This document shows positions 3,557 through 30,561 of a DNA stretch of 64,000 nt, one piece after another. The notes beneath the pieces are model-generated. The model saw nothing but the letters and a program-made list of their open reading frames with translations, had not been told where the DNA came from and did no database searches. Position 1 is the stretch's first letter, and each line of letters starts with the position of its first letter. The position numbers and the translations under genes are program-made. The stretch covers positions 1,810,001 to 1,874,000 of the forward strand of contig NC_011891.1 of assembly GCF_000022145.1 (NCBI RefSeq), written 5' to 3'. This DNA comes from Anaeromyxobacter dehalogenans 2CP-1 (lineage in GTDB: Bacteria > Myxococcota > Myxococcia > Myxococcales > Anaeromyxobacteraceae).

Positions 3557-3889
3557 ATGGCAGTGTCCACCGTGAAGGAAGTCTTCGAGCAGCACATCCC
3601 GGCGAAGCTCCAGGCGAAGCCGGACGTCGTCACCCGGATCGCGGCGGTCTACCAGTTCAACATCAGCGGTCCCGGCGGCGGCACCTGGGGCGTGGACTGC
3701 ACCGCGCCGGGCGGGAAGGTGAGCGAGGGCGCGCCCGCCAGCCCGAAGTGCACGGTCGCCGCGACCGAGCAGGACTTCCTGAACATCGTGAACGGCAAGC
3801 TCAACCCGCAGATGGCGTTCATGTCCGGGAAGCTGAAGATCCAGGGCGACATGGGCCTCGCCATGAAGCTGCAGCAGATCCTGGTCTGA
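3557..3889 (+). CDS. SCP2 sterol-binding-domain protein
   Basis: 110 residues forming one SCP2 (sterol carrier protein 2) domain. It shows the family order: an N-terminal helix (VKEVFEQHIPAKL), a beta sheet with a conserved GGTW turn, then the NGKLNPQMAFMSGKLKIQGDM core and a C-terminal hydrophobic helix. SCP2 domains bind acyl-CoAs, sterols or other lipids in a hydrophobic tunnel and have no catalytic residues of their own. The ATG at 3557 follows a GAGGG element. It lies 15 bases before the CoA-transferase gene, which supports a shared role in acyl-CoA handling. Confidence 0.88.
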   Translation: MAVSTVKEVFEQHIPAKLQAKPDVVTRIAAVYQFNISGPGGGTWGVDCTAPGGKVSEGAPASPKCTVAATEQDFLNIVNGKLNPQMAFMSGKLKIQGDMGLAMKLQQILV

Positions 3890-3904
3890 TCCTGGGCCAC
3901 GGGC

Positions 3905-5080
3905 GTGGCGCTCCCGCTCGCCGGCGTCCGCATCCTCGACCTCACCCGGCTCCTGCCCGGGCCGTACGCGACGCTGGTCCTCGCGGACCTCGGCGCCGAC
4001 GTCGTCAAGGTGGAGGACCCGCAGGGCGGCGACTGGCTGCGCTGGATGCCGCCGCTCGCGGGCGAGCAGTCCGGCGCATTCCACGCGCTCAACCGCAACA
4101 AGCGCTCGCTCGCGATCGACCTCCGCAGGGCCGAGGGCGTCGAGGCCTTCCTGCGGCTCGCCGCGCGCGCCGACGCCGTCGTCGAGTCCTTCCGGCCCGG
4201 CGTGCTCGACCGGCTGGGCGTCGGCTACGAGGCGCTGCGCGCCCGCGCCCCCGGCCTCGTGCTCTGCTCGATCTCCGGCTACGGGCAGGACGGCCCGTAC
4301 GCCGGTCGCGCCGGCCACGACCTCGACTACTGCGCGGTCTCCGGCGTGCTCGCCGCGAACGGCCCGCCGGACGCGCCGCGACCCCTGGGCGTCCAGGTCG
4401 CCGACGTGGCGGGCGGCGCCTGGCCGGCGGTCGCCGGCATCCTGGCGGCGCTGGTGCGGCGCGCGTCGACCGGCGAGGGCGCGCACGTGGACGTGTCGAT
4501 GACCGAGGGCGCGCTGGCGCTGCTCGCCATGCCGCTCGGGATGGCGTGGGCCCGCGGCGCGCCGCTCGCGCGCGGCCGCGAGCTCCTCGACGGCGGCGCG
4601 GGCTGCTACGGCGTGTATCGCACCCGCGACGGCCGCTTCGTCGCGCTCGCCGCGCTCGAGCCCCGGTTCTTCGCCGCGTTCTGCGAGGCCGTGGGCCGGC
4701 CGGAGCTCGCCTCGCGGCAGTGGGACGAGGGCGGCGCCGGGGCGCGCGCCGAGCTCGCGGCGATCTTCGCGGCGCGCACGCGCGACGAGTGGGCCGCGTT
4801 CGCCGCGGCGCACGACGCGTGCGTGGCGCCGGTGCTGGAAGGCGACGAGCCGCGCGCCGATCCGCAGCTCGCCGCGCGCGGCGCGTTCCTCGAGGTGGAC
4901 ACGCCGTGGGAGGGCAGGGCGCTCCCCGCGGTGGCGTCGCCGGTGCGGCTGCGCGGCGAGGCCGCGCCGCGCCGGCCCGCGCCCCGGCTGGGCGAGCACG
5001 GCGAGGCGGTGCTGGCCGAGGCCGGGTTCTCGCCCGCGGAGATCGCGGCCTTGCGCGCGTCGGGTGCGCTCGGAGCGTGA
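3905..5080 (+). CDS. CaiB/BaiF-family CoA transferase (alpha-methylacyl-CoA racemase-like)
   Basis: 391 residues from a GTG start. The N-terminus has the class III CoA-transferase signature (LDLTRLLPGPYAT, then LGADVVKVE), followed by NRNKRSLAIDL and the VESFRPGVLDRLG motif. The segment GHDLDY at about residues 138-143 contains the Asp expected at the active site. Family members move CoA between carboxylic acids or racemise 2-methylacyl-CoAs; the length and start motif fit the racemase branch slightly better. Together with the ligase and SCP2 genes it suggests branched or long acyl-CoA metabolism. The exact reaction is not determined. Confidence 0.88.
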   Translation: MALPLAGVRILDLTRLLPGPYATLVLADLGADVVKVEDPQGGDWLRWMPPLAGEQSGAFHALNRNKRSLAIDLRRAEGVEAFLRLAARADAVVESFRPGVLDRLGVGYEALRARAPGLVLCSISGYGQDGPYAGRAGHDLDYCAVSGVLAANGPPDAPRPLGVQVADVAGGAWPAVAGILAALVRRASTGEGAHVDVSMTEGALALLAMPLGMAWARGAPLARGRELLDGGAGCYGVYRTRDGRFVALAALEPRFFAAFCEAVGRPELASRQWDEGGAGARAELAAIFAARTRDEWAAFAAAHDACVAPVLEGDEPRADPQLAARGAFLEVDTPWEGRALPAVASPVRLRGEAAPRRPAPRLGEHGEAVLAEAGFSPAEIAALRASGALGA

Positions 5081-5158
5081 ACCCGGGCCCGCGCGCCGCG
5101 GCGGGTGCTGGCACTTTCGGTTGACAGGCACCGAGCGGCCGACCAAGTTCGGGGCGGG

Positions 5159-5422
5159 ATGCGCGCGCTCCTCGCCGCCGGGCTGGCCCTGTTCCTGGTC
5201 TTCGCGGCCGGGGGGCACCACGCGCACGCGCCCGGGCCCCACGGCGCCGACCACTGCGCCGTGTGCGCGGTGCGGAGCGCCGACGTCGCGCACACCGAGA
5301 CGCCCGACGTCGCGCCGCGCCCCGTCGTCGAGGACGTGGTCGAGCCTGCGCGCGGCCTCGCACCCGTGCTGGGCGCCCCGCTCGGCGCCGTCCCGGGCCA
5401 GTCACCTCCGCGGAACGCGTAG
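5159..5422 (+). CDS. Small exported His/Cys-containing protein ahead of the metal-uptake operon
   Basis: 87 residues from ATG 5159. A hydrophobic signal sequence (ALLAAGLALFLVFAAGG) is followed at once by HHAHAPGPHGADHCAVC, giving five His and a CxxC in a short stretch, then a low-complexity tail. Such metal-ligand-rich small proteins recur in front of zinc or copper uptake genes (DUF2946-like), and the next four genes form a metal ABC system, so periplasmic metal binding is a reasonable inference. A TTGACA at 5121-5126 could be its -35 element, although the expected -10 (CAAGTT) is poor. Confidence 0.6.
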   Translation: MRALLAAGLALFLVFAAGGHHAHAPGPHGADHCAVCAVRSADVAHTETPDVAPRPVVEDVVEPARGLAPVLGAPLGAVPGQSPPRNA

Positions 5423-5515
5423 CCCCTGCCGGCTCCGCAATGGGCGCGCGGCTGCTCGCGCGCGTCCGATCCGTTCCGCGTAACATGGCGCGCCGGGCGC
5501 GCGCCGAGGTGTCTC

Positions 5516-6748
5516 ATGCGTTCACTGATCGTGGCGAGCGTGCTCGCCGTGTCCGCCGTCCCCGTCGCCGGTTCCGCGCAGTCGTCCGGCGCGACCTCGC
5601 CGCCGTCCAGTCCCCCCGCGCAGCAGGATCCGAAGCAGCTCGAGGCGGAGATCGCCAGGGAGCTGGGCGCCGCTCCCGCGGCCGCCCCCGCGCCGCAGCC
5701 GGCGGCCCCGGCGCCGCCCGGCGCGGCCGCGCCGTCCACCGGCGGGAGCCCGTACGCGCGCCTCCTGCTCCTCCCCGACGTGAGCGCCATCGGCTCGGCC
5801 TCGCTCGCGTACGACGGCTACGACGTCGAGAAGCGCTCGCCGCGCGGCGGCCCGTTCAGCCCCGCCGAGAAGCCGGCGTTCGCGTTCGAGGAGCTCGAGC
5901 TCGGGCTGCAGGCGGTGGTCGACCCCTACGTCCGCGCCGACGTGTTCCTGTCCTTCACCGAGGCCGGCGCCGGCGTCGAGGAGGCCTACGTCACCACGCT
6001 CGCGCTCCCGGCCGGGCTTCAGGTCCGCGCCGGCCGCATCTACAGCCCGTTCGGCCGGCTCAACCTGCAGCACCCGCACGCCTGGGAGTTCGTGGACGCG
6101 CCGCTCGCGCGGGAGCGGCTCCTCGGCGAGGAGTCGCTGGGCGGGCCGGGCGTGGAGGTCGCCTGGCTCGCGCCGCTGCCCTGGTTCTCGGAGCTGCGCG
6201 TCGCCGGGCAGAACACCACGCTGATGGAGGACGCGACCTCGGAGCTGACCGGCGTGGCGCGGCTGCTCAACTACCTGCCGCTCGGCGAGACGGCGACGCT
6301 CGGCCTCGGCCTGTCCGCGGCGCGCCGCGGCGAGGGCACCGGCGGCGCGTTCCGCGACCTCGGCGGCGCCGACGCGTACCTGCGCATCCGCCCGCCCGCC
6401 GGGCGCGCCTACCTCGCGGTCCAGGGCGAGGTCTACGCGCGCAGGTTCCGTGGGGCCGCCGCCGACGCGAACGGCGGGGAGACCGAGACCGGCTGGTGGA
6501 CGCAGGCGTTCTGGCGGCAGAGCGCGTGGTGGGGGTACGGCGTCCGCTACGAGCGCGCGCCGTCCGCGGGCGAGGCGCCCAGCGGCACCGAGCAGCGCGC
6601 CAGCGGGCTCGTGACCTGGTTCCCGTCGGAGTTCCAGCGGCTCCGCTTGCAGGTCGGCTGGGATCGGCTGCCCGGCGGCGGAGGAGGCCTCGAGGCGCTG
6701 CTCCACGTCGAGTTCGGCATCGGGGCGCACGGCGCCCACCCGTTCTAG
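5516..6748 (+). CDS. Outer-membrane porin-like protein of a metal-uptake operon
   Basis: 410 residues. An N-terminal signal peptide is followed by an Ala/Pro-rich linker (residues about 22-75) containing a short charged helix, then some 320 residues of alternating polar/aromatic strands typical of a beta barrel, ending in Phe (HPF), the usual last residue of an outer-membrane barrel. The ATG at 5516 follows GAGGTG. It lies 12 bases before the binding-protein gene and is therefore probably the outer-membrane entry route for the same metal. The family is seen next to zinc ABC genes; transport itself is inferred. Confidence 0.7.
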   Translation: MRSLIVASVLAVSAVPVAGSAQSSGATSPPSSPPAQQDPKQLEAEIARELGAAPAAAPAPQPAAPAPPGAAAPSTGGSPYARLLLLPDVSAIGSASLAYDGYDVEKRSPRGGPFSPAEKPAFAFEELELGLQAVVDPYVRADVFLSFTEAGAGVEEAYVTTLALPAGLQVRAGRIYSPFGRLNLQHPHAWEFVDAPLARERLLGEESLGGPGVEVAWLAPLPWFSELRVAGQNTTLMEDATSELTGVARLLNYLPLGETATLGLGLSAARRGEGTGGAFRDLGGADAYLRIRPPAGRAYLAVQGEVYARRFRGAAADANGGETETGWWTQAFWRQSAWWGYGVRYERAPSAGEAPSGTEQRASGLVTWFPSEFQRLRLQVGWDRLPGGGGGLEALLHVEFGIGAHGAHPF

Positions 6749-6760
6749 GAGGAGATCGCC

Positions 6761-7660
6761 ATGACCTTCCGCCCCGTCGCCGTCCTCCTGGCCCTTGTCC
6801 CCTCGCTTGCGCTCGCCGGACCCCGCGTCGTCACCACCACCGAGGGGCTCGCCGCGCTCGTCCGAGAGGTCTCCGCCGGCCGCGCGTCGGTGGAGAGCCT
6901 CTCGCGCGGCTCGCAGGATCCGCACTACGTGGACGCGAACCCGATGCTCGCGGTGAAGCTCCGCAACGCCGACTTGCTCGTGGACGTCGGCCTCGACCTC
7001 GAGATCGGCTGGCTGCCGCCGCTCGTGAACCAGTCGCGCAACGGCGCCATCCAGCCCGGCGGCGCGCACCGGCTCACCGCCGCCTCGGCCGTGCAGGTGC
7101 TCGACGTGCCCACGGGCCCGGTGGACCGCAGCCGCGGCGACCTCCACCCCGCCGGCAACCCGCACTTCCTCACCGACCCGCGCCGCGCGCTCCAGGTCGC
7201 GACGGCGATCGCCGGGAAGCTGGGCGAGCTCGATCCCAGCGGTGCCGCCGCCTACCAGGGCGCGCTCGCCGCGTTCCGGACGAAGCTCCAGGCCGACTTG
7301 GCGCGCTGGCAGGCGACGCTCGCGCCGGTGAAGGGGCGGAAGATCTTCTCGCAGCACCGCACGCTCACGTACTTCCTCGACTGGAGCGGGATCGTGTCGG
7401 CGGGCGAGATCGAGCCGCGCCCCGGCGTGCCCGCGCCGCCCGCCTACCTCGCCGAGCTGGTGCAGCGGGCGCAGCGCGAGCAGGTGAAGGCGATCGTGGT
7501 GGAGAACTACTACGACACGAAGTCCGCCGAGGTGGTGGCGCGCCACGCCGGCGCGAAGGTGGTGCGCGTGCCCGGGGACGTGGGCGGCGAGCCCGGGGTG
7601 AAGACCTACGAGCAGTGGATCCAGGAGCTCGTGGAGCGCGTCGCGGAGGCGCTCCGTTGA
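6761..7660 (+). CDS. Metal ABC transporter substrate-binding protein (ZnuA/TroA family)
   Basis: 299 residues with a signal peptide ending near LALAG. The cluster A-I (TroA) ligands can be placed: His55 in DPHYV, His135 in the NPHF motif, His199 in SQHRTLTYF, and an acidic residue near 273 in PGDVG. These four bind Zn2+ or Mn2+ in the periplasm and deliver it to the permease. The long His/Asp-rich loop of enterobacterial ZnuA is absent. An AGGAGGAGAT ribosome site precedes the ATG. It is coupled to the ATPase gene by a 4-base overlap. Confidence 0.9.
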   Translation: MTFRPVAVLLALVPSLALAGPRVVTTTEGLAALVREVSAGRASVESLSRGSQDPHYVDANPMLAVKLRNADLLVDVGLDLEIGWLPPLVNQSRNGAIQPGGAHRLTAASAVQVLDVPTGPVDRSRGDLHPAGNPHFLTDPRRALQVATAIAGKLGELDPSGAAAYQGALAAFRTKLQADLARWQATLAPVKGRKIFSQHRTLTYFLDWSGIVSAGEIEPRPGVPAPPAYLAELVQRAQREQVKAIVVENYYDTKSAEVVARHAGAKVVRVPGDVGGEPGVKTYEQWIQELVERVAEALR

Positions 7661-8427
7661 GCCCCGGCCCGCTCGTCGCGCTCGAGGGCGCAACCGTCGG
7701 GTACGGCCGCCGCGCCATCCTCCAGCGGGTGGACCTCGCGGTCGAGGCCGGGGACTTCCTGGCCGTGGTCGGCCCGAACGGCGGCGGCAAGACCACGCTC
7801 GTGCGCTCGCTGCTCGGCGCGCTGCCGCTGCTCGCCGGGCGGCGCACGCTGCGGCCCGGCGTGCGCGTCGGCTACGTGCCCCAGCGCGACCACGTCGATC
7901 CCGTGTGGCCGTTCACCGCGGGAGAGGTGGTGCTGATGGGCCGGGTCCCCGCGCTCGGCCCCGGGCGCCGCCCCGGCCCCGCCGACCACGAGGCGGTGCG
8001 GGCCGCGCTCGGGCTCGTCGGGATCGAGGCGCTCGCCGGGAGCGCGTACGGCGAGCTCTCCGGCGGGCAGCGGCAGCGCACGCTCATCGCGCGGGCGCTC
8101 GCCGCGGAGCCCACGCTGCTGGTGGTGGACGAGCCCACCAACGGCATGGACCCCGCCGCCGAGCTCGCGACCATGGACCTGCTCCGCGATCTGCACCAGG
8201 GCGTGCGGATCGCGATCGTGATGGTGTCGCACCGGCTCGAGGCCGTGGCGAACTACGCGCGCGCGCTCGCGTTCGTGGACAAGGACCAGACGCTGTTCCG
8301 CGTCGGGCCGGTGGAGGAGATGCTGCGGCCCGACGGGCTCGGGGCGCTGTACGGAAGGCCCGTCGCGGTGCGCGAGCTGGACGGGCGGCGCCTCGTGTAC
8401 CCCATCAACGGCGGGGTGCGTCGGTGA
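7657..8427 (+). CDS. Metal ABC transporter ATP-binding protein
   Basis: 256 residues, starting at a TTG that overlaps the upstream stop (TTGA), a typical translational-coupling arrangement. Walker A is GPNGGGKTT at residues 39-47, the signature is LSGGQRQR, Walker B is LLVVDEPT, and the switch His lies in MVSHRLEAV. It energises import by the permease encoded immediately downstream. Length and motif spacing match ZnuC/MntB-type ATPases. Earlier in-frame starts would run back through the binding-protein gene and are rejected. Confidence 0.9.
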   Translation: MSPGPLVALEGATVGYGRRAILQRVDLAVEAGDFLAVVGPNGGGKTTLVRSLLGALPLLAGRRTLRPGVRVGYVPQRDHVDPVWPFTAGEVVLMGRVPALGPGRRPGPADHEAVRAALGLVGIEALAGSAYGELSGGQRQRTLIARALAAEPTLLVVDEPTNGMDPAAELATMDLLRDLHQGVRIAIVMVSHRLEAVANYARALAFVDKDQTLFRVGPVEEMLRPDGLGALYGRPVAVRELDGRRLVYPINGGVRR

Positions 8428-9266
8428 GCGCGCTCGAGACGTTCCTGTCCGCGCGCGAGATCTGGGAGGTGCCCCTCGCCGCGTCCGTCGTGGCCGGCGC
8501 GCTGCTCGGCGCGCTCGGCGTGTACGTGGTGCTCCGGCGGACCGTGTTCGTGTCCGCCGCGCTCACGCAGGTGTCCACCCTCGGGCTCGTGCTCACGCTG
8601 CTCGTCGAGGAGCGGGTGCACATCGAGACCGAGCACGCCACCGAGCAGCTCGCCGTCGCGATCCTGTTCTCGGTGGCCGGCGCCCTCGTCCTCGGCGCGC
8701 TCCGCCCCCGCCGGCTGCCCGCCGAGGCCACCGTCGGCGCCGCCTGGGTGACCGCGTCCGCGCTCGTCGTGCTCGGGGTGAGCCAGCTCGTGCACGCCGC
8801 GCACGACCTCGGCGGCATGGTGTTCGGCAACGCCGTCGCCGTGCCCGCCGGCGACCTCGCCGTGATCGTGGTGGTGGCGGCCGTCTGCACCGCCGTGCAC
8901 CTCGTGTTCGCGAAGGAGCTCGCGTTCGCGTCGTTCGACCCCGAGACCGCCCAGGCGCTCGGGCTGCGGGTGAAGCTGTGGGACGCCGTGCTGTTCCTGA
9001 CCATCGGGCTCGCGATCCCCGTCACCGCGCGGGCGCTCGGCGCGCTGCCCGTGTTCGCGTTCCTGACCCTGCCCGCCGCGGCCGCGCTGCTGCTCAAGGT
9101 CGGGTTCCGCCCCGCGTTCGCCGTCGCCGCCGGCCTCGGCATCCTGGCGGCGGGTGGCGGCTACGTGCTGTCGTGGATCTGGGAGATCCCCACCGGCGCG
9201 ACCATGGTGGCGCTCGCCGCGCTGTTCCTGGTGCCCGGCGCCGTGCTGCGGAGAGCGGGAGGATGA
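8424..9266 (+). CDS. Metal ABC transporter permease (ABC-3 family)
   Basis: 280 residues from GTG 8424, overlapping the ATPase stop by 4 bases. Seven to eight hydrophobic segments are visible. The region DPETAQALGLRVKLWDAV is the cytoplasmic coupling loop characteristic of ZnuB/TroC-type permeases. It completes an operon of small His-rich protein, outer-membrane protein, binding protein, ATPase and permease. Zinc is the most likely substrate from context, but manganese or iron cannot be excluded. Confidence 0.9.
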   Translation: MSALETFLSAREIWEVPLAASVVAGALLGALGVYVVLRRTVFVSAALTQVSTLGLVLTLLVEERVHIETEHATEQLAVAILFSVAGALVLGALRPRRLPAEATVGAAWVTASALVVLGVSQLVHAAHDLGGMVFGNAVAVPAGDLAVIVVVAAVCTAVHLVFAKELAFASFDPETAQALGLRVKLWDAVLFLTIGLAIPVTARALGALPVFAFLTLPAAAALLLKVGFRPAFAVAAGLGILAAGGGYVLSWIWEIPTGATMVALAALFLVPGAVLRRAGG

Positions 9267-9317
9267 GGCCGCCGGCGAGGCCGTCCCGAACGCATTTCGG
9301 CGCGGTGCGAAAAGGTC

Positions 9318-9346
9318 TTGACCGGAACCGGCCCGGACTGTAGAAA
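9318..9346 (+). promoter_or_regulatory. Promoter of the initiator tRNA gene
   Basis: TTGACC at 9318-9323, a 17-base spacer, and TAGAAA at 9341-9346. Five of six and four of six bases match the sigma-70 consensus. The implied start near 9353 leaves a roughly 24-base 5' leader before the mature tRNA. Confidence 0.65.
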
Positions 9347-9373
9347 CCCGCCTCGCTTCGACACTTTCCCACC

Positions 9374-9453
<80 letters not shown>

Positions 9454-9457
9454 GTTC

Positions 9458-9496
9458 GACGCCGGCCAGCCCAGAGCTGAGCCGGCGTCTTCTTTT
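9458..9496 (+). terminator. Rho-independent terminator after tRNA-fMet
   Basis: A perfect 9-base inverted repeat, GACGCCGGC at 9458-9466 and GCCGGCGTC at 9481-9489, is followed by TTCTTTT (9490-9496). The hairpin begins only 4 bases after the tRNA CCA end. Confidence 0.8.
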
Positions 9497-9506
9497 GGGG
9501 TGACCG

Positions 9507-10262
9507 TTGCTCGACCTCGTCGCGCGCACCTCCGGCACCTGGATCAACGTCGCCGCGATCGCGGCCGGCACCGTCGTCGGCGCCGGCGTGGGCGCCCGGC
9601 TGCCGGACCGCCTCGGGCGGACGCTGATGCAGGTGCTCGGGCTCGTGACGCTGCTCGTCGGGCTCGGGATGGCGCGGGGCCTGGACGGCGTTCGCGCCGG
9701 TCCGCTGCCCGGCATCATCCTCGCGCTGGTGAGCCTCGCGCTCGGCGCGGTCGTGGGCGAGCTGCTCCAGATCGAGGAGCGGCTCACGGCCATCGGCGAG
9801 GCGGCGCGCCGCAAGGTGGGCGGCGGGGGCCGCTTCACCGAGGGCTTCGTCACCGCGTCGCTGCTCTTCTGCATCGGGCCGATGGCGATCGTCGGCTCGA
9901 TCCAGAACGGCCTGACGCTCGACGCGCAGACGCTGGTGCTGAAATCGTCGCTCGACGGGATCGCCGCGGTCGCGCTCGCGGGCGTCTACGGCGTCGGGGT
10001 CGGGCTCTCCGCGCTGCCGATCCTCGTCCTCCAGGGCGGCATCAGCGTGGCCGCGGCCGCGTTCGCGCGGGTGCTGCCGGATCCCGCGACGGATCCGCGC
10101 GTGCTCGCGGTCGGGGGCGCCGGCGGGTTGCTCGTCGCGGGGATCGGGCTGAACCTGCTGCTCGCCGGCGTGGGGATGGAGGACCGCCGGGTTCGCGTCG
10201 GGTCGATGCTGCCGGCGCTGCTGATCGCGCCGGTGCTGGTGGTGGTGCTGGCGGGGTGGTGA
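9507..10262 (+). CDS. DUF554 family membrane protein
   Basis: 251 residues from a TTG start located just after the tRNA terminator. The family pattern is clear: WINVAAIAAGTVVGAGVG at the N-terminus, a cytoplasmic region with LQIEERL, then FVTASLLFCIGPMAIVGSIQNGL and several more hydrophobic spans (about seven in total). DUF554 (YdfK-like) proteins are inner-membrane proteins of unknown transport role. No neighbour hints at a substrate. Confidence 0.85.
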   Translation: MLDLVARTSGTWINVAAIAAGTVVGAGVGARLPDRLGRTLMQVLGLVTLLVGLGMARGLDGVRAGPLPGIILALVSLALGAVVGELLQIEERLTAIGEAARRKVGGGGRFTEGFVTASLLFCIGPMAIVGSIQNGLTLDAQTLVLKSSLDGIAAVALAGVYGVGVGLSALPILVLQGGISVAAAAFARVLPDPATDPRVLAVGGAGGLLVAGIGLNLLLAGVGMEDRRVRVGSMLPALLIAPVLVVVLAGW

Positions 10263-22949: not shown

Positions 22950-23696
22950 ATGGCCTACGATCTACTTTCCGTGTACCCGGCGAAGCTCCTGGAGTACGGC
23001 CTCGGGATCGGCTACCTGCTGCTCTTCATCCCCTTCTGGAGGTACGTGCAGGGCGGCCGGCGCGAGGCGCGCGAGGTGATGCGGGTCGCGGTGCCGGTGC
23101 GCGAGGCGGTGTCCGCCGCCCTCCGTGCGGCGCGTCCCGCGGGCGCGACCGCCATCGCCCGGCCGGCCTCGGCCGGCTGGTTCCACGTCCCGGCCGACGT
23201 GCACCTGCACCCCGGCCACACCTGGGCGCGGCTGGGCGGCGACGGGCTCGTCTCCGTGGGCATCGACGACTTCGCCCACAAGCTGGTGGGGCCGGCGACG
23301 GTGGAGCTGCCCGCGGTCGGGGCGCGGGTGGCGCAGGGCGAGCCCGCCATCGAGCTGCGCGAAGAGGACCGCGGGGTCGCGATGCTCTCGCCGGTGGACG
23401 GCACCGTGGTCGCGGTGAACCCGCGCGTCCGCGCCCACGGCGCGCTCGAGGACCCCTACGGCGCGGGCTGGCTGTTCAAGGTGAAGGCGCCGCGGCTGGT
23501 GGCGAACTTCCGGCAGCTCCAGGCCGAGGCGCCGGCGCAGCGGATGCTCGACGTGGCCGGGGACACGCTGGCGCTCCGCCTCGCGCCCGAGCTCGGGCAG
23601 GTCCTGCAGGACGGCGGCACGCCGGTCCACGGCATCGCCCGCGCGCTGGCCGGGGAGGGCTGGGACGAGCTGGCGCGGGAGTACTTCCTGACCTGA
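22950..23696 (+). CDS. Membrane-anchored GcvH-like (lipoyl-domain) protein lacking the lipoyl lysine
   Basis: 248 residues. One transmembrane segment (about residues 12-30, LEYGLGIGYLLLFIPFW) is followed by a basic linker and a GcvH-like hammerhead domain: HPGHTWARLGGDGLVSVGIDDFA, LVGPATVELPAVGARVAQGEP, SPVDGTVVAVN, then DPYGAGWLFKVK. In true GcvH the lipoylated lysine sits in ESVKAASD; the aligned stretch here is EEDRGVAML, with Asp at the lysine position. It therefore probably cannot carry lipoate. Such anchored H-like proteins occur in anaerobic delta-proteobacteria without known function. No gcvP or gcvT is nearby. Confidence 0.75.
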   Translation: MAYDLLSVYPAKLLEYGLGIGYLLLFIPFWRYVQGGRREAREVMRVAVPVREAVSAALRAARPAGATAIARPASAGWFHVPADVHLHPGHTWARLGGDGLVSVGIDDFAHKLVGPATVELPAVGARVAQGEPAIELREEDRGVAMLSPVDGTVVAVNPRVRAHGALEDPYGAGWLFKVKAPRLVANFRQLQAEAPAQRMLDVAGDTLALRLAPELGQVLQDGGTPVHGIARALAGEGWDELAREYFLT

Positions 23697-24618: not shown

Positions 24619-24853
24619 GGCGACCTCCGGTCGTTTGCGTCGACGTTGCTCCTCGCGCGAAACGGTGAGGCTGCGCCCGTTGGTCGCAGACCAGGGAGAG
24701 ACGCACCGTGGACGAGCACCGCCGCGCCCTCTGCAGCCGATCGTCCTGCCCGGCTGTCACACCATCCCGAGGGGACCGCTTCGAACTGGCCCCGCCCGGT
24801 GCCGGCGAAGGCCTCCCGGGCCTGGCGCATCATGGGGGCCAGCGGGGATGCCA

Positions 24854-26977
24854 ATGAAGAACGTCGTCAGCATCAGCCTCGGCGCGAGCGCCGGTGACTA
24901 CGACTACACCACGCGGTTCATGGGGCAGTCGTTCCGCGTCCGCCGCTTCGGGGTCGACCACGACCTCCGCAAGGCGCTCGACCTGCTCGCGCGCTGGCAG
25001 GGCGAGTGCGACGCGATCGGGCTCGGCCTCGTGGCCGACCACCTGCTGGTCGGGACGCGCCGCTGGGAGGATCCGACCACCGCCGAGCTCGAGGCGGCGG
25101 TGTGCGAGGTGCCGGTCACCACCGGCGCCCGCCTCCGCGGCTTCCTCGACGAGTGGGCCATCCGGCACATCCAGGCGCACGAGCAGCGCTGCTTCACGAA
25201 CGCACGGGTGATCTTCCTCTCCGGCCTCGCGAACTACGCCATCGCGCAGGCCGTGTCCGAGTACACGCACAACCTGGGCTTCGCCGACCCGCTGCTCCAG
25301 CTCGGGCTGCCGGCGATCCTGGGCTCGGTCGCGCAGCTCGAGGCATACGCGGCGCTCACGGCGCCCGTGCAGCGTCCGCTCCAGGCGGTGTGGGGCAAGG
25401 CCCCGCTCGCGCTCCGCGACGCCTGGACGCGGCTGATCCTCGGGAAGGCGGCCCGCGAGGCGAGCGTCCTGGTGGGTCCGCACGACGACCTCGCCGCGCT
25501 CGGGCGCGAGGCGCTGGACCGCAAGATCGTCCTCACCTCGGCGGTGACGGACGAGGAGGTCGAGCGGCTCGGCGACCAGGGGGTGGACGTCGTCATCGAC
25601 CGCACGCCGAAGCTGCTCGGGCGCGTCGTGGGCCTCAACGTGATCGAGGCCATGATCATCGCCGCGCTGGGCAGGCAGCACCGCGACGACGTCCTCCACG
25701 ACGAGTACCTCGACATCTTCGGCGAGATGAAGCTCGCGCCGCGCATCCTGTTCCCCTCGGGCAAGCCCAGGCGCGTGAACCGGTTCGCCTTCGTCATCCA
25801 CCCGCTGTCGCGCGAGTACCTGAAGGCGTCGAAGCCCGTCGAGCTGGCGTCGCGCATCGCCCCGTCGGTCGTGCTGCCGGTCGTCGAGAAGCTCATCGCG
25901 TACTCGCCGCCGTTCGTGTACTCGCGGGTCACCGGCATCCGGTCGCCGACCGGCACCGAGGCGGAGGGCTGGCTCATCACCGTGGGCGGCACGCCCAAGG
26001 AGCTCCTGGCGCACAGCCCGGAGTTCACGTACCGGCGGCTGCTCGCCGCCGCCAAGATCGCCGAGGGGCTCGGCGCCCAGATCATGGGCCTCGGCGCGTT
26101 CACCAAGGTGGTGGGCGACGCGGGCGTGACGGTCGCGAAGCGCGCCGGCATCCCCATCACCACCGGGAACAGCTACAGCGCGTCCGCGGCGCTCTGGGCC
26201 GCCGCGGACGCGGTGAAGCGCCTCGGGCTCCTCTCCCGGAGCGAGGACGGCAAGGTCGCCGGCAAGGCGATGGTGGTGGGGGCGACGGGCGCGATCGGCG
26301 CCGCGTGCGCGCGCCTGCTCGCGATGTCCTTCGACGACGTCTTCCTCGTGTCGCCGGAGATCGGGAAGCTGCTCACGTTGCGGGAGACGATCCTCGCGGA
26401 CACGCCCGACGCGGTCCTGCACCTGTCGAGCAAGGCGGACGAGAACCTGCGCGACATGGACCTCGTGGTCACGGCCACCTCCGGCGCCGGCAAGAAGATC
26501 CTCGACATCATGAAGGTGAAGCCCGGCTGCGTGATCACCGACGTGGCGCGCCCGCTCGACCTGCCGCCGTCCGAGGTGGCGAAGCGGCCCGACGTGCTCG
26601 TCATCGAGTCGGGCGAGATCCAGCTGCCCGGCGGCGCGCGCATGCGCGACATCGGCCTCCCGGACGGCGTCGTGTACGCCTGCCTGGCCGAGACGATCGT
26701 CCTCGCGCTGGAGGGCCGGTTCGAGAGCTACACCGTCGGTCGGAACATCGAATGGGAGAAGGTGAAGGAGATCTACAAGCTCGGGCTCAAGCACGGCATG
26801 CGGCTGGCGGCCATCTCCGGGGTGAACGGGCCGTTCACCGACGAGGACATCGGCCGCGTTCGCGCGCTCGCGCTCGCGGCGCGGACGCGCTGGCCGGGCG
26901 GGGCGCCGTCGCGCGCGGCCGTGCGCGAGCCTGCGCGGCCGGCCGCGGAGCGCCCGGAGCAGCACGCGGGGGCCTGA
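24854..26977 (+). CDS. N-terminally extended acyl-ACP-reductase-like dehydrogenase
   Basis: 707 residues (an ATG 6 bases earlier is possible). Residues about 380-665 look like cyanobacterial long-chain acyl-ACP reductase (AAR): IAEGLGAQIMGLGAFTKVV, TGNSYSASAALWAA, the nucleotide-binding GATGAIG near 476, and YACLAETIVLALEG, in which Cys610 aligns with the acyl-thioester nucleophile of AAR; VGRNIEWEKV follows. AAR enzymes are about 340 residues; here roughly 370 extra N-terminal residues of unrecognised fold precede the core. It should reduce an acyl-ACP or acyl-CoA to aldehyde with NADPH if active. A GGGG element 6 bases before the ATG is the only ribosome-site-like motif. Confidence 0.72.
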   Translation: MKNVVSISLGASAGDYDYTTRFMGQSFRVRRFGVDHDLRKALDLLARWQGECDAIGLGLVADHLLVGTRRWEDPTTAELEAAVCEVPVTTGARLRGFLDEWAIRHIQAHEQRCFTNARVIFLSGLANYAIAQAVSEYTHNLGFADPLLQLGLPAILGSVAQLEAYAALTAPVQRPLQAVWGKAPLALRDAWTRLILGKAAREASVLVGPHDDLAALGREALDRKIVLTSAVTDEEVERLGDQGVDVVIDRTPKLLGRVVGLNVIEAMIIAALGRQHRDDVLHDEYLDIFGEMKLAPRILFPSGKPRRVNRFAFVIHPLSREYLKASKPVELASRIAPSVVLPVVEKLIAYSPPFVYSRVTGIRSPTGTEAEGWLITVGGTPKELLAHSPEFTYRRLLAAAKIAEGLGAQIMGLGAFTKVVGDAGVTVAKRAGIPITTGNSYSASAALWAAADAVKRLGLLSRSEDGKVAGKAMVVGATGAIGAACARLLAMSFDDVFLVSPEIGKLLTLRETILADTPDAVLHLSSKADENLRDMDLVVTATSGAGKKILDIMKVKPGCVITDVARPLDLPPSEVAKRPDVLVIESGEIQLPGGARMRDIGLPDGVVYACLAETIVLALEGRFESYTVGRNIEWEKVKEIYKLGLKHGMRLAAISGVNGPFTDEDIGRVRALALAARTRWPGGAPSRAAVREPARPAAERPEQHAGA

Positions 26978-27013: not shown

Positions 27014-28111
27014 TCACCGGTCCGCGTGCACGACGTAGAAGCAGTTCTGGATGTCGTGCGGCAGCGTGTGAACCGAGACCTCGCCGAACCCAGCCTCGGC
27101 GAGCATCGCCCGCGCGCGCTCCTCGCCCCACATCGTCCCGAGCCCGGCCCCGCCCTGCGCGAGCGAGACGGTCATGCAGTGCATGACGGACACCGCGTAC
27201 AGGAAGGGTGCGAGCGGATGTTCGACGTTCCGTTCGAGGGCGCTCGACGCGCGGATGTCCTGCATCAGGAAGATGCCGTCCGGCGCGAGGCGCTGGCGGA
27301 TGCCGCGGAGCACGGCGGCCGGATCCGCCTGGTCGTGGATCGCGTCGAACGCGGTGATGAGGTCGTACCGCGCCTCGCCGACCGGACCGGCGGCGTCCCG
27401 CACGTCGAACTCGACGTTCGTGAGCCGGTGCTCGGCGGCGACGTTGCGCGCCGCGCGTATCGCCTCCTCGGAGAAGTCGTGCCCCGTGAACCGGCTTCGC
27501 GGGTAGGCGCGCGCGAGCGCGGTCAGCGCGCGCCCCGAGCCGCAGCCAACGTCGAGCACGGAGATCCCGTCCAGCAGGTCGTGCTCGAGCCCCGGCACGA
27601 GGGCGACGATCGCGTCGAGCGCCCCCACCACGCTCTGGCCACTGTCCTCCGCCATCACCTCGTGGAAGCGGTGGAACGCGGAGTACGGGACGCCGCTCCC
27701 GCTGCGGAAGCACTCGACGATCCGGTCCTCGACCGCCCCGAGCAGCGCGACGTACTGCGCGTAGACCGCGAAGTTGTTGGGCGTCGCGGCGCGCGTGAGG
27801 AGCGAGGCGTGGTGCGCGGGCAGGCGGTACTGGCCGCCGCGCGGGTCGTACTCGACGACCCTCGAGGTCGTCATCGCGCCGAGCCACTCACGCACGTAGC
27901 GCTCGTCGAGGCCCGCCTCGTGCGCGAGCTCCGCTGCCGTCGCGGGCGGCAGGCGCGCCATCGCGTCGAAGAGGCCCGTGCGGTGGCCGACCGAGATCAT
28001 GAGCGCAGCCCCGGCCTCGTCGAGCATGCCGACCAGCCGGTTCCCGAACGCATCCACCGCGTCGGCGTTCGGAGCCGCTCGCGCGGGTTCCATCGCATGC
28101 GGGTGTTCCAT
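27014..28111 (-). CDS. Class I SAM methyltransferase with N-terminal winged-helix domain
   Basis: 365 residues. The N-terminal 95 residues form the winged-helix dimerisation domain typical of O-methyltransferase-like proteins (GLFDAMARL, AAELAHEAGLDERYVREWL). The SAM core follows with SVLDVGCGSGRALTAL, FTGHDFSEEAI, VEFDVRD and ITAFDAIHD. The overall architecture resembles Rv2258c-type proteins. It ends convergently, 36 bases from the AAR-like gene. Substrate unknown. Confidence 0.85.
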   Translation of the reverse strand: MEHPHAMEPARAAPNADAVDAFGNRLVGMLDEAGAALMISVGHRTGLFDAMARLPPATAAELAHEAGLDERYVREWLGAMTTSRVVEYDPRGGQYRLPAHHASLLTRAATPNNFAVYAQYVALLGAVEDRIVECFRSGSGVPYSAFHRFHEVMAEDSGQSVVGALDAIVALVPGLEHDLLDGISVLDVGCGSGRALTALARAYPRSRFTGHDFSEEAIRAARNVAAEHRLTNVEFDVRDAAGPVGEARYDLITAFDAIHDQADPAAVLRGIRQRLAPDGIFLMQDIRASSALERNVEHPLAPFLYAVSVMHCMTVSLAQGGAGLGTMWGEERARAMLAEAGFGEVSVHTLPHDIQNCFYVVHADR

Positions 28112-28137: not shown

Positions 28138-30561
28138 CTAGGCGCGGCGTGAGGCCGCGGCCACAACCTCTTGGATCCGCCGGATCTCACAGAGATATGC
28201 CCGGTGAGGCACGGACCCGCTGATCGGATCGATCGCGGCGTTCCCGATCAGGAGGTTGAAGTTCGCGCCGTCAGGGCCGAACGGATCGTAGCCGGGTGCT
28301 CCAACCTCCGGGCACGGCTGCCACCACCCGTGCTGCCCGGAGACCACGTCCGGCTGCAACGTGTCGTTCAGCCGCGCCCGCGCGCGCACGCTGCCGTCGG
28401 GCGTCTCGATGCGGACCCAGTCGCCCGTCGCGATGCCGCGTTCCGCCGCAGCCGCGGGGTGCAGCTCGACCTCGGGGTCCATCGCCTTCCGCCGCAGGCT
28501 GGGGAGCGCGCGGTGCTGGGTCTCGCAGAAGAGGGTGTGCTTCGTGCACGTGAGGACGAGCGGATAGCGCTCCGCGAGGTCGGGGCGGGAGACCGGACCG
28601 ACGAGTGGCTCCTGGTACTCGGGCAGCGGCGGGTGGCCGTGGGCGAGCAGCGTCTCGGAGTACAGCTCGATCTTGCGCGTGGGCGTGTCGAAGCCTCGCG
28701 GGATCCCGCCGGCCTCCTCCGCGAACTTGCGGTAGCGCGTCTCGAGCGCGACGCGCGCACCCGCGGGGTGCTCGCGCAGCCACTCGAGCGAGAGCCCCGA
28801 GGGCCCGAGCTGGTGGCGATAGGCGGCGTCGACGTCCCCGTTCCAGAAGTGCTCCCCGAGCCCGAGCGCGACGGCGAGGCCGAAGACGAGCTCGGTGTCG
28901 GAGCGCGCCTCGCCAGGGGGCGCGGCCACGGGCCGCCGCAGCTGCACGAGCGACTGCGCCTCGGGGCTCACCTCGAAGCCGAGCTTGAGCGCCTCGCGCT
29001 CGAAGCCGCTCGCCACCGGCAGGACCAGGTCGGCGAGCTCCGCGGTGGGGTTCATGAAGAGGTCCGCGTGGACGTAGAAGTCGAGCGCGCGGAGCGCCTC
29101 GCGCCCGCGCGGGACGTCGCCGTGCGACAGCAGGAGGTTGGAGCCGAAGCCGACGAGACCGCGGACCGCGTACGGCCTTCGTTCGAGGATGGCGCGGTAC
29201 AGCTCGTCGGTGGTCGCGAACCCCCACCGCGCCGGGCCGAGCGGACGGTCGGCGACGCCGAGCCCGACGGCGGAGTGCTCCGGCCGCGGTGGCACCTCGG
29301 TGCCGACGGCGGGGGAAGGGACCGAGGGGAAGAGCACGTTGCCGCCCCGTGCATCGAAGCTGCCCGTCAGCACGGAGAGCTGCGCGATCGCTCGCGCGAT
29401 CTGCGTCGAGCTGGTCTGCATCTCGACCCCGCTCCACGCGTAGTAGGCGAGGGGCCTCGCCTCCCACAGGAGCCGCGCGGCGCGCTCGACCTCGCCCCGC
29501 GGGACGCCGGTGATCGCCTCCACGCGCTCCGGCGAGTACGCCCGGCAGCGCGCGGCGGCGAGCTCGAAGGCGGTCTGGCAGTGCACGCTTCCCTTCGGCG
29601 TCTCCAGCGTGTGCTCGCCGAACAGGGCGAGGTCGACCGCGCCGGTCTCGTACCGCACGCACCGGGGGTCGTAGAGCACGGGGCGGTCAGAGGTCCGGTC
29701 CCAGGCCACGAAGGATCCCGGGTCGCCGCCCTCGAGGTCCGCGCCCGTCAGGAGGCGGCCCGTGTCGGAGCGGACGAGCAGCGGGCCGTTCGTCCACTCA
29801 CGCACGAACGGCTCGTCGAACCACCCGCGCTCGATCATCACGCCGGCGATCCCGAGCGCGAGCGCGCCGTCCGTCCCCGGGCGCACCCGCAGCCACGCGT
29901 CGGCGCGCCGGGCGGGCTCGGTGCGCCGGGGATCGACCACGACGAGGCGCGCCCCGCGCTTCTGCGCGGCGATCGTGGCGGTCGCGTGGGCGAGCCGCGC
30001 GTGGTTGGGGTTGTAGCCCCAGAACAGGATGCAGCCGGCGTGCTCGAGGTCGGGCAGGTAGCGTCCGGGAACCGGCGCACCGAAGGTGAACGTCGTCGCG
30101 AAGTGCCGTCCCCAGCCGCACAGCTCCATGGCGACGACGAGGTTCGGGCTGCCGAACGTGCGCGTCAGCCGCTCGACCCAGGCCATCGAGTCGTCCGAGG
30201 CCGAGGTGGACGGTGACACCAGGCTGAACGCGACGCTCTCGGGCCCGGACTCCGTGGCGAGCTGGCGGAGCCGCGACGCGGTGATCGACAGCGCTTCGTC
30301 CCAGCCGATCCGCTTCCAGCCGGGTTCGGGATCGCCCTTCGGGCGCGTGCGCAGCAACGGGAACTCGAGACGGCCAGGGTGGTAGACGAGCTCCGGCCCC
30401 GCCCGGCCCTTCGCGCAGAGCGCCTGGCCGGTGGGATGTGACGGGTCGGGATCGAGCCGGACGAACCGGCCATCCTCGATCGTCGCGATGGCGCCGCAGC
30501 GCGAGACGCACAGCGCGCAGTATATGGGGATGCGCTCCGAGGTCGCCTTGGCGGCCGGCAT
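28138..30561 (-). CDS. Molybdopterin oxidoreductase of the DMSO-reductase family (cytoplasmic)
   Basis: 807 residues. The N-terminus binds an Fe-S cluster through Cys15-x2-Cys18-x3-Cys22 and Cys49 (LCAKGRAG). Cys148 in MELCGWGRH is the probable Mo ligand. Later segments VVVDPRRTE, NPTAELADLVLPVAS and the C-terminal SGQHGWWQPC domain bind the two pyranopterins. There is no Tat signal and no companion Fe-S or membrane subunit beside it, so it probably works in the cytoplasm with a partner encoded elsewhere. It lies in the assimilatory-type branch; substrate unknown. Confidence 0.88.
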   Translation of the reverse strand: MPAAKATSERIPIYCALCVSRCGAIATIEDGRFVRLDPDPSHPTGQALCAKGRAGPELVYHPGRLEFPLLRTRPKGDPEPGWKRIGWDEALSITASRLRQLATESGPESVAFSLVSPSTSASDDSMAWVERLTRTFGSPNLVVAMELCGWGRHFATTFTFGAPVPGRYLPDLEHAGCILFWGYNPNHARLAHATATIAAQKRGARLVVVDPRRTEPARRADAWLRVRPGTDGALALGIAGVMIERGWFDEPFVREWTNGPLLVRSDTGRLLTGADLEGGDPGSFVAWDRTSDRPVLYDPRCVRYETGAVDLALFGEHTLETPKGSVHCQTAFELAAARCRAYSPERVEAITGVPRGEVERAARLLWEARPLAYYAWSGVEMQTSSTQIARAIAQLSVLTGSFDARGGNVLFPSVPSPAVGTEVPPRPEHSAVGLGVADRPLGPARWGFATTDELYRAILERRPYAVRGLVGFGSNLLLSHGDVPRGREALRALDFYVHADLFMNPTAELADLVLPVASGFEREALKLGFEVSPEAQSLVQLRRPVAAPPGEARSDTELVFGLAVALGLGEHFWNGDVDAAYRHQLGPSGLSLEWLREHPAGARVALETRYRKFAEEAGGIPRGFDTPTRKIELYSETLLAHGHPPLPEYQEPLVGPVSRPDLAERYPLVLTCTKHTLFCETQHRALPSLRRKAMDPEVELHPAAAAERGIATGDWVRIETPDGSVRARARLNDTLQPDVVSGQHGWWQPCPEVGAPGYDPFGPDGANFNLLIGNAAIDPISGSVPHRAYLCEIRRIQEVVAAASRRA

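Follow-up and report, generated by a model that had tools for sequence, protein, structure and literature searches.

A two-half protein of the AAR/PigE type in Anaeromyxobacter dehalogenans, probably an acyl-thioester reductase with a fused partner domain

In cyanobacterial acyl-ACP reductase (AAR) the acyl group is carried by a cysteine before hydride transfer (PMC7089970), and the same acyl-Cys mechanism has been proposed for PigE and TamH, whose reductase domains mean that AAR-type reductases are already known outside cyanobacteria (PMC8341465, PMC9594044). The wax-ester fatty acyl reductases considered in a 2025 study are FarA, AcrB, Acr1 and FcrA (PMC11948995), and in Acinetobacter an introduced cyanobacterial AAR was a poor supplier for wax-ester synthesis (PMC5806253). 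The protein analysed here is encoded in a window of 64,000 nucleotides from the genome of Anaeromyxobacter dehalogenans 2CP-1 (Table 1), and is a variant of this AAR/PigE type; by analogy it is probably a soluble enzyme that reduces acyl thioesters with NAD(P)H. A search of the PubMed Central literature returned no description of a two-half protein of this kind, which on that search looks undescribed.

The reading frame encodes a real protein, since homologues 51-91% identical over the full length occur across many phyla, and the ATG start is backed by homologues sharing the same MKxVVSISLG N-terminus. An antisense frame on the opposite strand (24830-26965, 711 aa) was rejected as a shadow frame due to GC-rich coding. 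The gene is present in one copy in the complete 5.03-Mb genome, its nearest named relatives being in Anaeromyxobacter sp. PSR-1 (91%) and A. oryzae (82%). It is sporadic within the genus, where three of eight further genomes searched carry it besides the window genome, and rare in the rest of the class. The first-pass annotation described an acyl-ACP-reductase-like enzyme with an N-terminal extension of 370 residues; the extension exists, but the domain border falls near residue 305-310, leaving an N-terminal part of about 305 residues.

Table 1. Features of the reductase gene and the adjacent dehydrogenase gene (window positions)
Feature	Position	Strand	Basis or remark
Putative two-half AAR-type acyl-thioester reductase	24854..26977	+	707 aa plus stop, from ATG
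N-terminal half (residues 1-305), predicted AAR-like fold without catalytic Cys or GxxGxxG loop	24854..25768	+	AF2 model, VIA match
C-terminal half (residues 310-670), predicted complete AAR/PigE-type reductase	25781..26863	+	profile, PDB-sequence and fold matches
Dinucleotide loop GATGAIG (residues 476-482)	26279..26299	+	equivalent to AAR 162-168 GATGDIG; conserved in homologues
Cys610 codon	26681..26683	+	equivalent to acyl-enzyme Cys294 of AAR and Cys296 of PigE; Cys in YACLAE
His316 codon	25799..25801	+	nearly invariant; aligned by eye with AAR His7
Divergent short-chain dehydrogenase (SDR), 286 aa	23758..24618	-	PF00106 6e-46; adjacent gene also in Anaeromyxobacter sp. PSR-1

The C-terminal half carries the family relationship. 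Residues 310-672 align with positions 1-356 of the PigE model NF053554 (E 2.6e-52, 178 bits against an equivalog cut-off of 850 bits, the match being to the reductase part only), and residues 350-650 match the AAR model TIGR04058 (E 4.9e-16) at 59 bits, again far below the equivalog cut-off, here 449.7 bits, which makes the protein a relative of cyanobacterial AAR and not a member of that family. Its sequence matches in the PDB are 4ppm (PigE) together with 6jzq and other AAR entries, and AAR is also the best PDB fold for this half in the predicted full-length AlphaFold2 model (pLDDT 86.7, pTM 0.85; Foldseek 6jzy, E 1.5e-17, TM 0.77 by target length). These matches bear out the AAR relationship put forward in the first-pass annotation, and both motifs it named, the glycine loop and the Cys of YACLAE, are found in this half (Table 1). 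Cys610, the loss of which in related proteins it named as a refutation, is present in 80 of 82 homologues, the two exceptions being a Ser in locus L065 and a Gly in the tandem second copy of locus L013. AAR His7, the counterpart of His316, contacts Tyr247 in the AAR structure (PMC7089970). Residues ~310-670 form a complete AAR-type thioester reductase, for which analogy with AAR and PigE predicts an acyl-ACP/CoA to aldehyde activity.

Duplicated forms of the gene are seen in two of the loci. The tandem second copy in L013 (10458-12539), in which Gly replaces the catalytic Cys, lies beside an intact copy and is possibly a further inactive partner. The acidobacterial locus L016 holds two two-half copies in divergent orientation, at 3640-7770 (-) and 8001-10118 (+), which fall on different tree branches.

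The gene neighbourhoods of the relatives suggest a fatty acyl reductase whose type is undescribed, acting in a fatty alcohol/wax ester pathway. A tblastn survey of the 59 loci with sufficient flanks found, within 1.5 kb of the fused gene, NAD_binding_4 proteins at 23 loci, WS/DGAT at 16, Fe-ADH at 11, classical SDRs at 8 and FadD-like ligases at 2, counts that come from loci which are not phylogenetically independent and from family seeds drawn from the same loci; control strips twice as long, at 3-6 kb, gave 0-2 matches per family. A candidate aldehyde reductase (Fe-ADH, NAD_binding_4 or SDR) stands beside 42 of the 59, and 46 have a member of at least one of the five families. Family identity was confirmed for WS/DGAT by TIGR02946 (376.9 bits, cut-off 309.95), for Fe-ADH by PF00465 and for NAD_binding_4 by PF07993; the NAD_binding_4 gene beside the actinobacterial copies hits PRK07201, which serves as the profile for AcrB, over the N-terminal half of that model. 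Different hosts thus pair the reductase with unrelated families able to reduce aldehydes, a pattern that fits a route from acyl thioester through aldehyde and alcohol to wax ester. Fatty-aldehyde formation outside cyanobacteria, raised as a possibility in the first-pass annotation, is thus well supported as a predicted function by gene neighbourhoods.

Taking together the AAR/PigE analogy, the predicted fold and the neighbourhoods, we consider it fairly probable that the protein is a two-half acyl-thioester reductase whose aldehyde product is converted to alcohol and on to wax esters. In such an enzyme the C-terminal half would work as AAR and PigE do: Cys610 would accept a long-chain acyl group from either acyl-CoA or acyl-ACP, and reduction to fatty aldehyde would follow, with NAD(P)H docked at the GATGAIG loop. 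The N-terminal half would pack against the active half, to which it is fused, in the manner of a pseudo-dimer, probably stabilising that half or shaping or gating its acyl tunnel, and would take the place of a subunit that Armatimonadota and some Bacillota make as a protein of its own. The aldehyde would then be reduced to alcohol by a lineage-specific partner, either Fe-ADH, an NAD_binding_4 protein or an SDR, and in many hosts the alcohol would be esterified to wax esters by WS/DGAT.

It is for A. dehalogenans itself that wax esters are least certain as the end point, because of the partner families only the divergent SDR adjoins the gene in the window and the WS/DGAT match in the genome is weak (70 bits; 89.8 with its in-frame neighbour) and about 0.29 Mb away. 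The SDR is a possible aldehyde reductase, but a weakly linked one, and was rejected as an operon partner: it is divergent, and the link is not kept in A. oryzae, where the alignable DNA covers the reductase gene alone. Co-occurrence with WS/DGAT within the genus was likewise set aside as uninformative, most members having WS/DGAT with or without the gene. Also in the window are a protein of 248 aa (22950-23696, +) that combines an apparently hydrophobic N-terminus with a glycine-cleavage H-like domain (PF01597), and a methyltransferase with an Rv2258c-like winged HTH (27014-28111), beside a molybdopterin oxidoreductase of 807 aa (28138-30561, -).

The neighbourhoods also bear on whether the substrate might instead be a specialised acyl chain, belonging to a natural product or cell-envelope lipid as with PigE/TamH, the WS/DGAT neighbours reflecting other lipid chemistry. 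The closest profile to the reductase is indeed that of PigE, relatives occur in prodiginine-like clusters, and none of the five partner families is found at 13 of the 59 loci; in several loci without known partners the genes near the reductase are mostly of unrelated families. We hold this reading to be doubtful, though not negligible, as the reductase is repeatedly paired with WS/DGAT, with aldehyde-reductase families and, at two loci, with FadD-like ligases, and the fused protein lacks an aminotransferase domain.

The N-terminal half matches no Pfam or NCBIfam family. Folded alone it yields an AF2 model with pLDDT 90, and in a VIA-align comparison over PDB chains ranked by Foldseek the best match of this predicted model is AAR 6jzq (Z 13.3, 248 aligned, rmsd 4.3). 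The top eight matches, which cover the whole domain, are AAR (Z 13.3-12.7) and the TAD of carmabin synthetase (Z 12.0-11.9), the next group being the malic enzymes (Z 10.2). The two halves show no significant sequence homology above shuffled controls in hhalign comparisons of two alignments, controlled with shuffled and unrelated profiles (P 0.02-0.04; score 22.7 against a shuffled maximum of 23.1). A shared fold is thus what the model predicts, and common descent of this half with the AAR fold is likely but unproven. The lack of significant similarity between the halves and the score of the malic enzymes could be taken to mean that an unrelated Rossmann-type domain makes up the N-terminal half and resembles AAR only because folds of this kind are widespread; this we judge unlikely, since AAR and TAD hold the first eight ranks, align over the whole domain and lead the next family by 2-3 Z.

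The position in the N-terminal half that matches the catalytic Cys (residue 262) is mainly A, N or S, and the glycine loop is lost, both correspondences being drawn from a weak profile alignment. Because Cys and glycine motif are missing, this half is probably a catalytically dead AAR-fold partner, and from the loss of the motif we infer that it would not bind NAD(P)H. The first-pass annotation had suggested that the extension might select the acyl carrier or a second substrate, which is not supported in that form, given both the predicted AAR fold without Cys or glycine motif and the occurrence of this half elsewhere as a separate partner protein; a carrier-selecting extension of unrelated fold was accordingly replaced by the AAR-like fold. 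An FxD motif, nearly invariant at a strand end, could still serve in ligand binding. A conserved site is also suggested by the invariant residues R31, G33, D145, K224 and A266, and these, set in a predicted Rossmann-type AAR fold, leave room for a second functional domain with which the protein alone would make fatty alcohol, such as an aldehyde reductase or a site for CoA/ACP or a nucleotide. Such a domain is distinctly improbable, as the GxxGxxG loop and Cys are lost and the separate Fe-ADH, NAD_binding_4 or SDR genes alongside would be redundant. The weakest alternative, an alkane-pathway AAR feeding an aldehyde-deformylating oxygenase, shares the AAR fold and Cys of the C-terminal half but is hardly credible and was rejected, Ald_deCOase (PF11266) being absent from this genome and ten relatives in a search whose control detects it in Synechococcus elongatus.

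That the N-terminal half is a partner of the reductase is consistent with its distribution where the halves are separate. In the Bacillota locus L077 they are neighbouring genes, and a standalone N-half is present in five of the five genomes that carry a standalone C-half. Within the Bacillota class of L077 the N-half is found in 70 of 72 genomes and the C-half, counted whether standalone or aminotransferase-fused (as in L164), in 69 of 72; in 23 genomes the printed coordinates place C immediately downstream of N. The corresponding figures for Armatimonadota are 192 and 194 of 201 genomes; when only strong C matches are counted, 186 genomes have both halves, 6 neither, 6 N only and 3 C only (Fisher p 8e-7, a value inflated by incomplete assemblies and shared ancestry), and of the 26 best C-half matches in this phylum, 13 share the strand of N and follow it at a distance of no more than 350 bp. 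Co-occurrence and adjacency therefore suggest that the halves are two subunits of one enzyme, fused later.

The standalone N-half of L077 (7986-8909), about 300 aa long, belongs to a protein near-universal in these two groups and without a Pfam or NCBIfam model; such standalone proteins probably carry the annotation 'quinate 5-dehydrogenase'. Several of the Bacillota loci read have the gene order Dus, small uncharacterised protein, N-half, C-half. TamH-like aminotransferase-reductase fusions of about 900 aa also occur in Bacillota, at L164:2124-4835 (-), where the fusion is directly downstream of an N-half gene, and in L163, L165, L168 and L169.

In the C-half tree, some outgroup branches of which are very long and of unsure order, the fused proteins group in a single clade (SH-aLRT 100), which excludes PigE/TamH and AAR as well as the standalone proteins and the aminotransferase fusions of Bacillota. 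The clade spans six phyla, Myxococcota, Acidobacteriota, Pseudomonadota, SAR324, Thermodesulfobacteriota and Actinomycetota, which are intermixed within it, the Actinomycetota making up a group of their own, and because of this intermixing the tree suggests that the fused gene spread horizontally. A broader proposal is that, outside cyanobacteria, AAR chemistry requires two AAR-fold proteins, one dead and one live, as an obligate pair. Separate genes for the two would belong to the core set of Armatimonadota and of a Bacillota class; a single fusion would have produced a 700-residue protein, and this form would have spread across phyla as a hitherto undescribed class of fatty acyl reductases for wax esters. 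We put the chances of this proposal at about even. If true, the link of a natural AAR-type reductase to WS/DGAT would fill a gap in the wax-ester set and offer a new enzyme for fatty aldehyde/alcohol production, and the two-gene form of Armatimonadota provides a testable function for a conserved N-half that lies outside Pfam/NCBIfam models.

The proposed enzyme thus shares features with four described systems and is distinct from each. With cyanobacterial AAR (TIGR04058; PDB 6JZQ/6JZY) it has in common the fold, the GATGxIG loop and a nearly identical spacing from loop to Cys (162 to 294 in AAR, 476 to 610 here), but identity in the aligned fold is 23-24%, the protein is twice as long, its gene partners differ and its genome has no ADO. 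The PigE/TamH reductase domain of prodigiosin and tambjamine synthesis gives the closest curated profile, with the same Cys and the same proposed reaction type, yet is fused to an aminotransferase in pyrrole natural-product pathways, whereas here the fusion is to an AAR-fold half. FarA, AcrB, Acr1 and FcrA resemble it in the proposed supply of aldehyde or alcohol to WS/DGAT, but Acr1 is an SDR, FcrA a relative of HMG-CoA reductase, and none of the four is described there as AAR-type (PMC11948995). The carmabin synthetase TAD (PDB 9E4U, 9E50, 9E56), found by structure searches with both halves, has an AAR-like fold and a Cys (2238) trapped as a disulfide with dephospho-CoA, and, unlike either half here, is the terminal domain of a modular synthetase.
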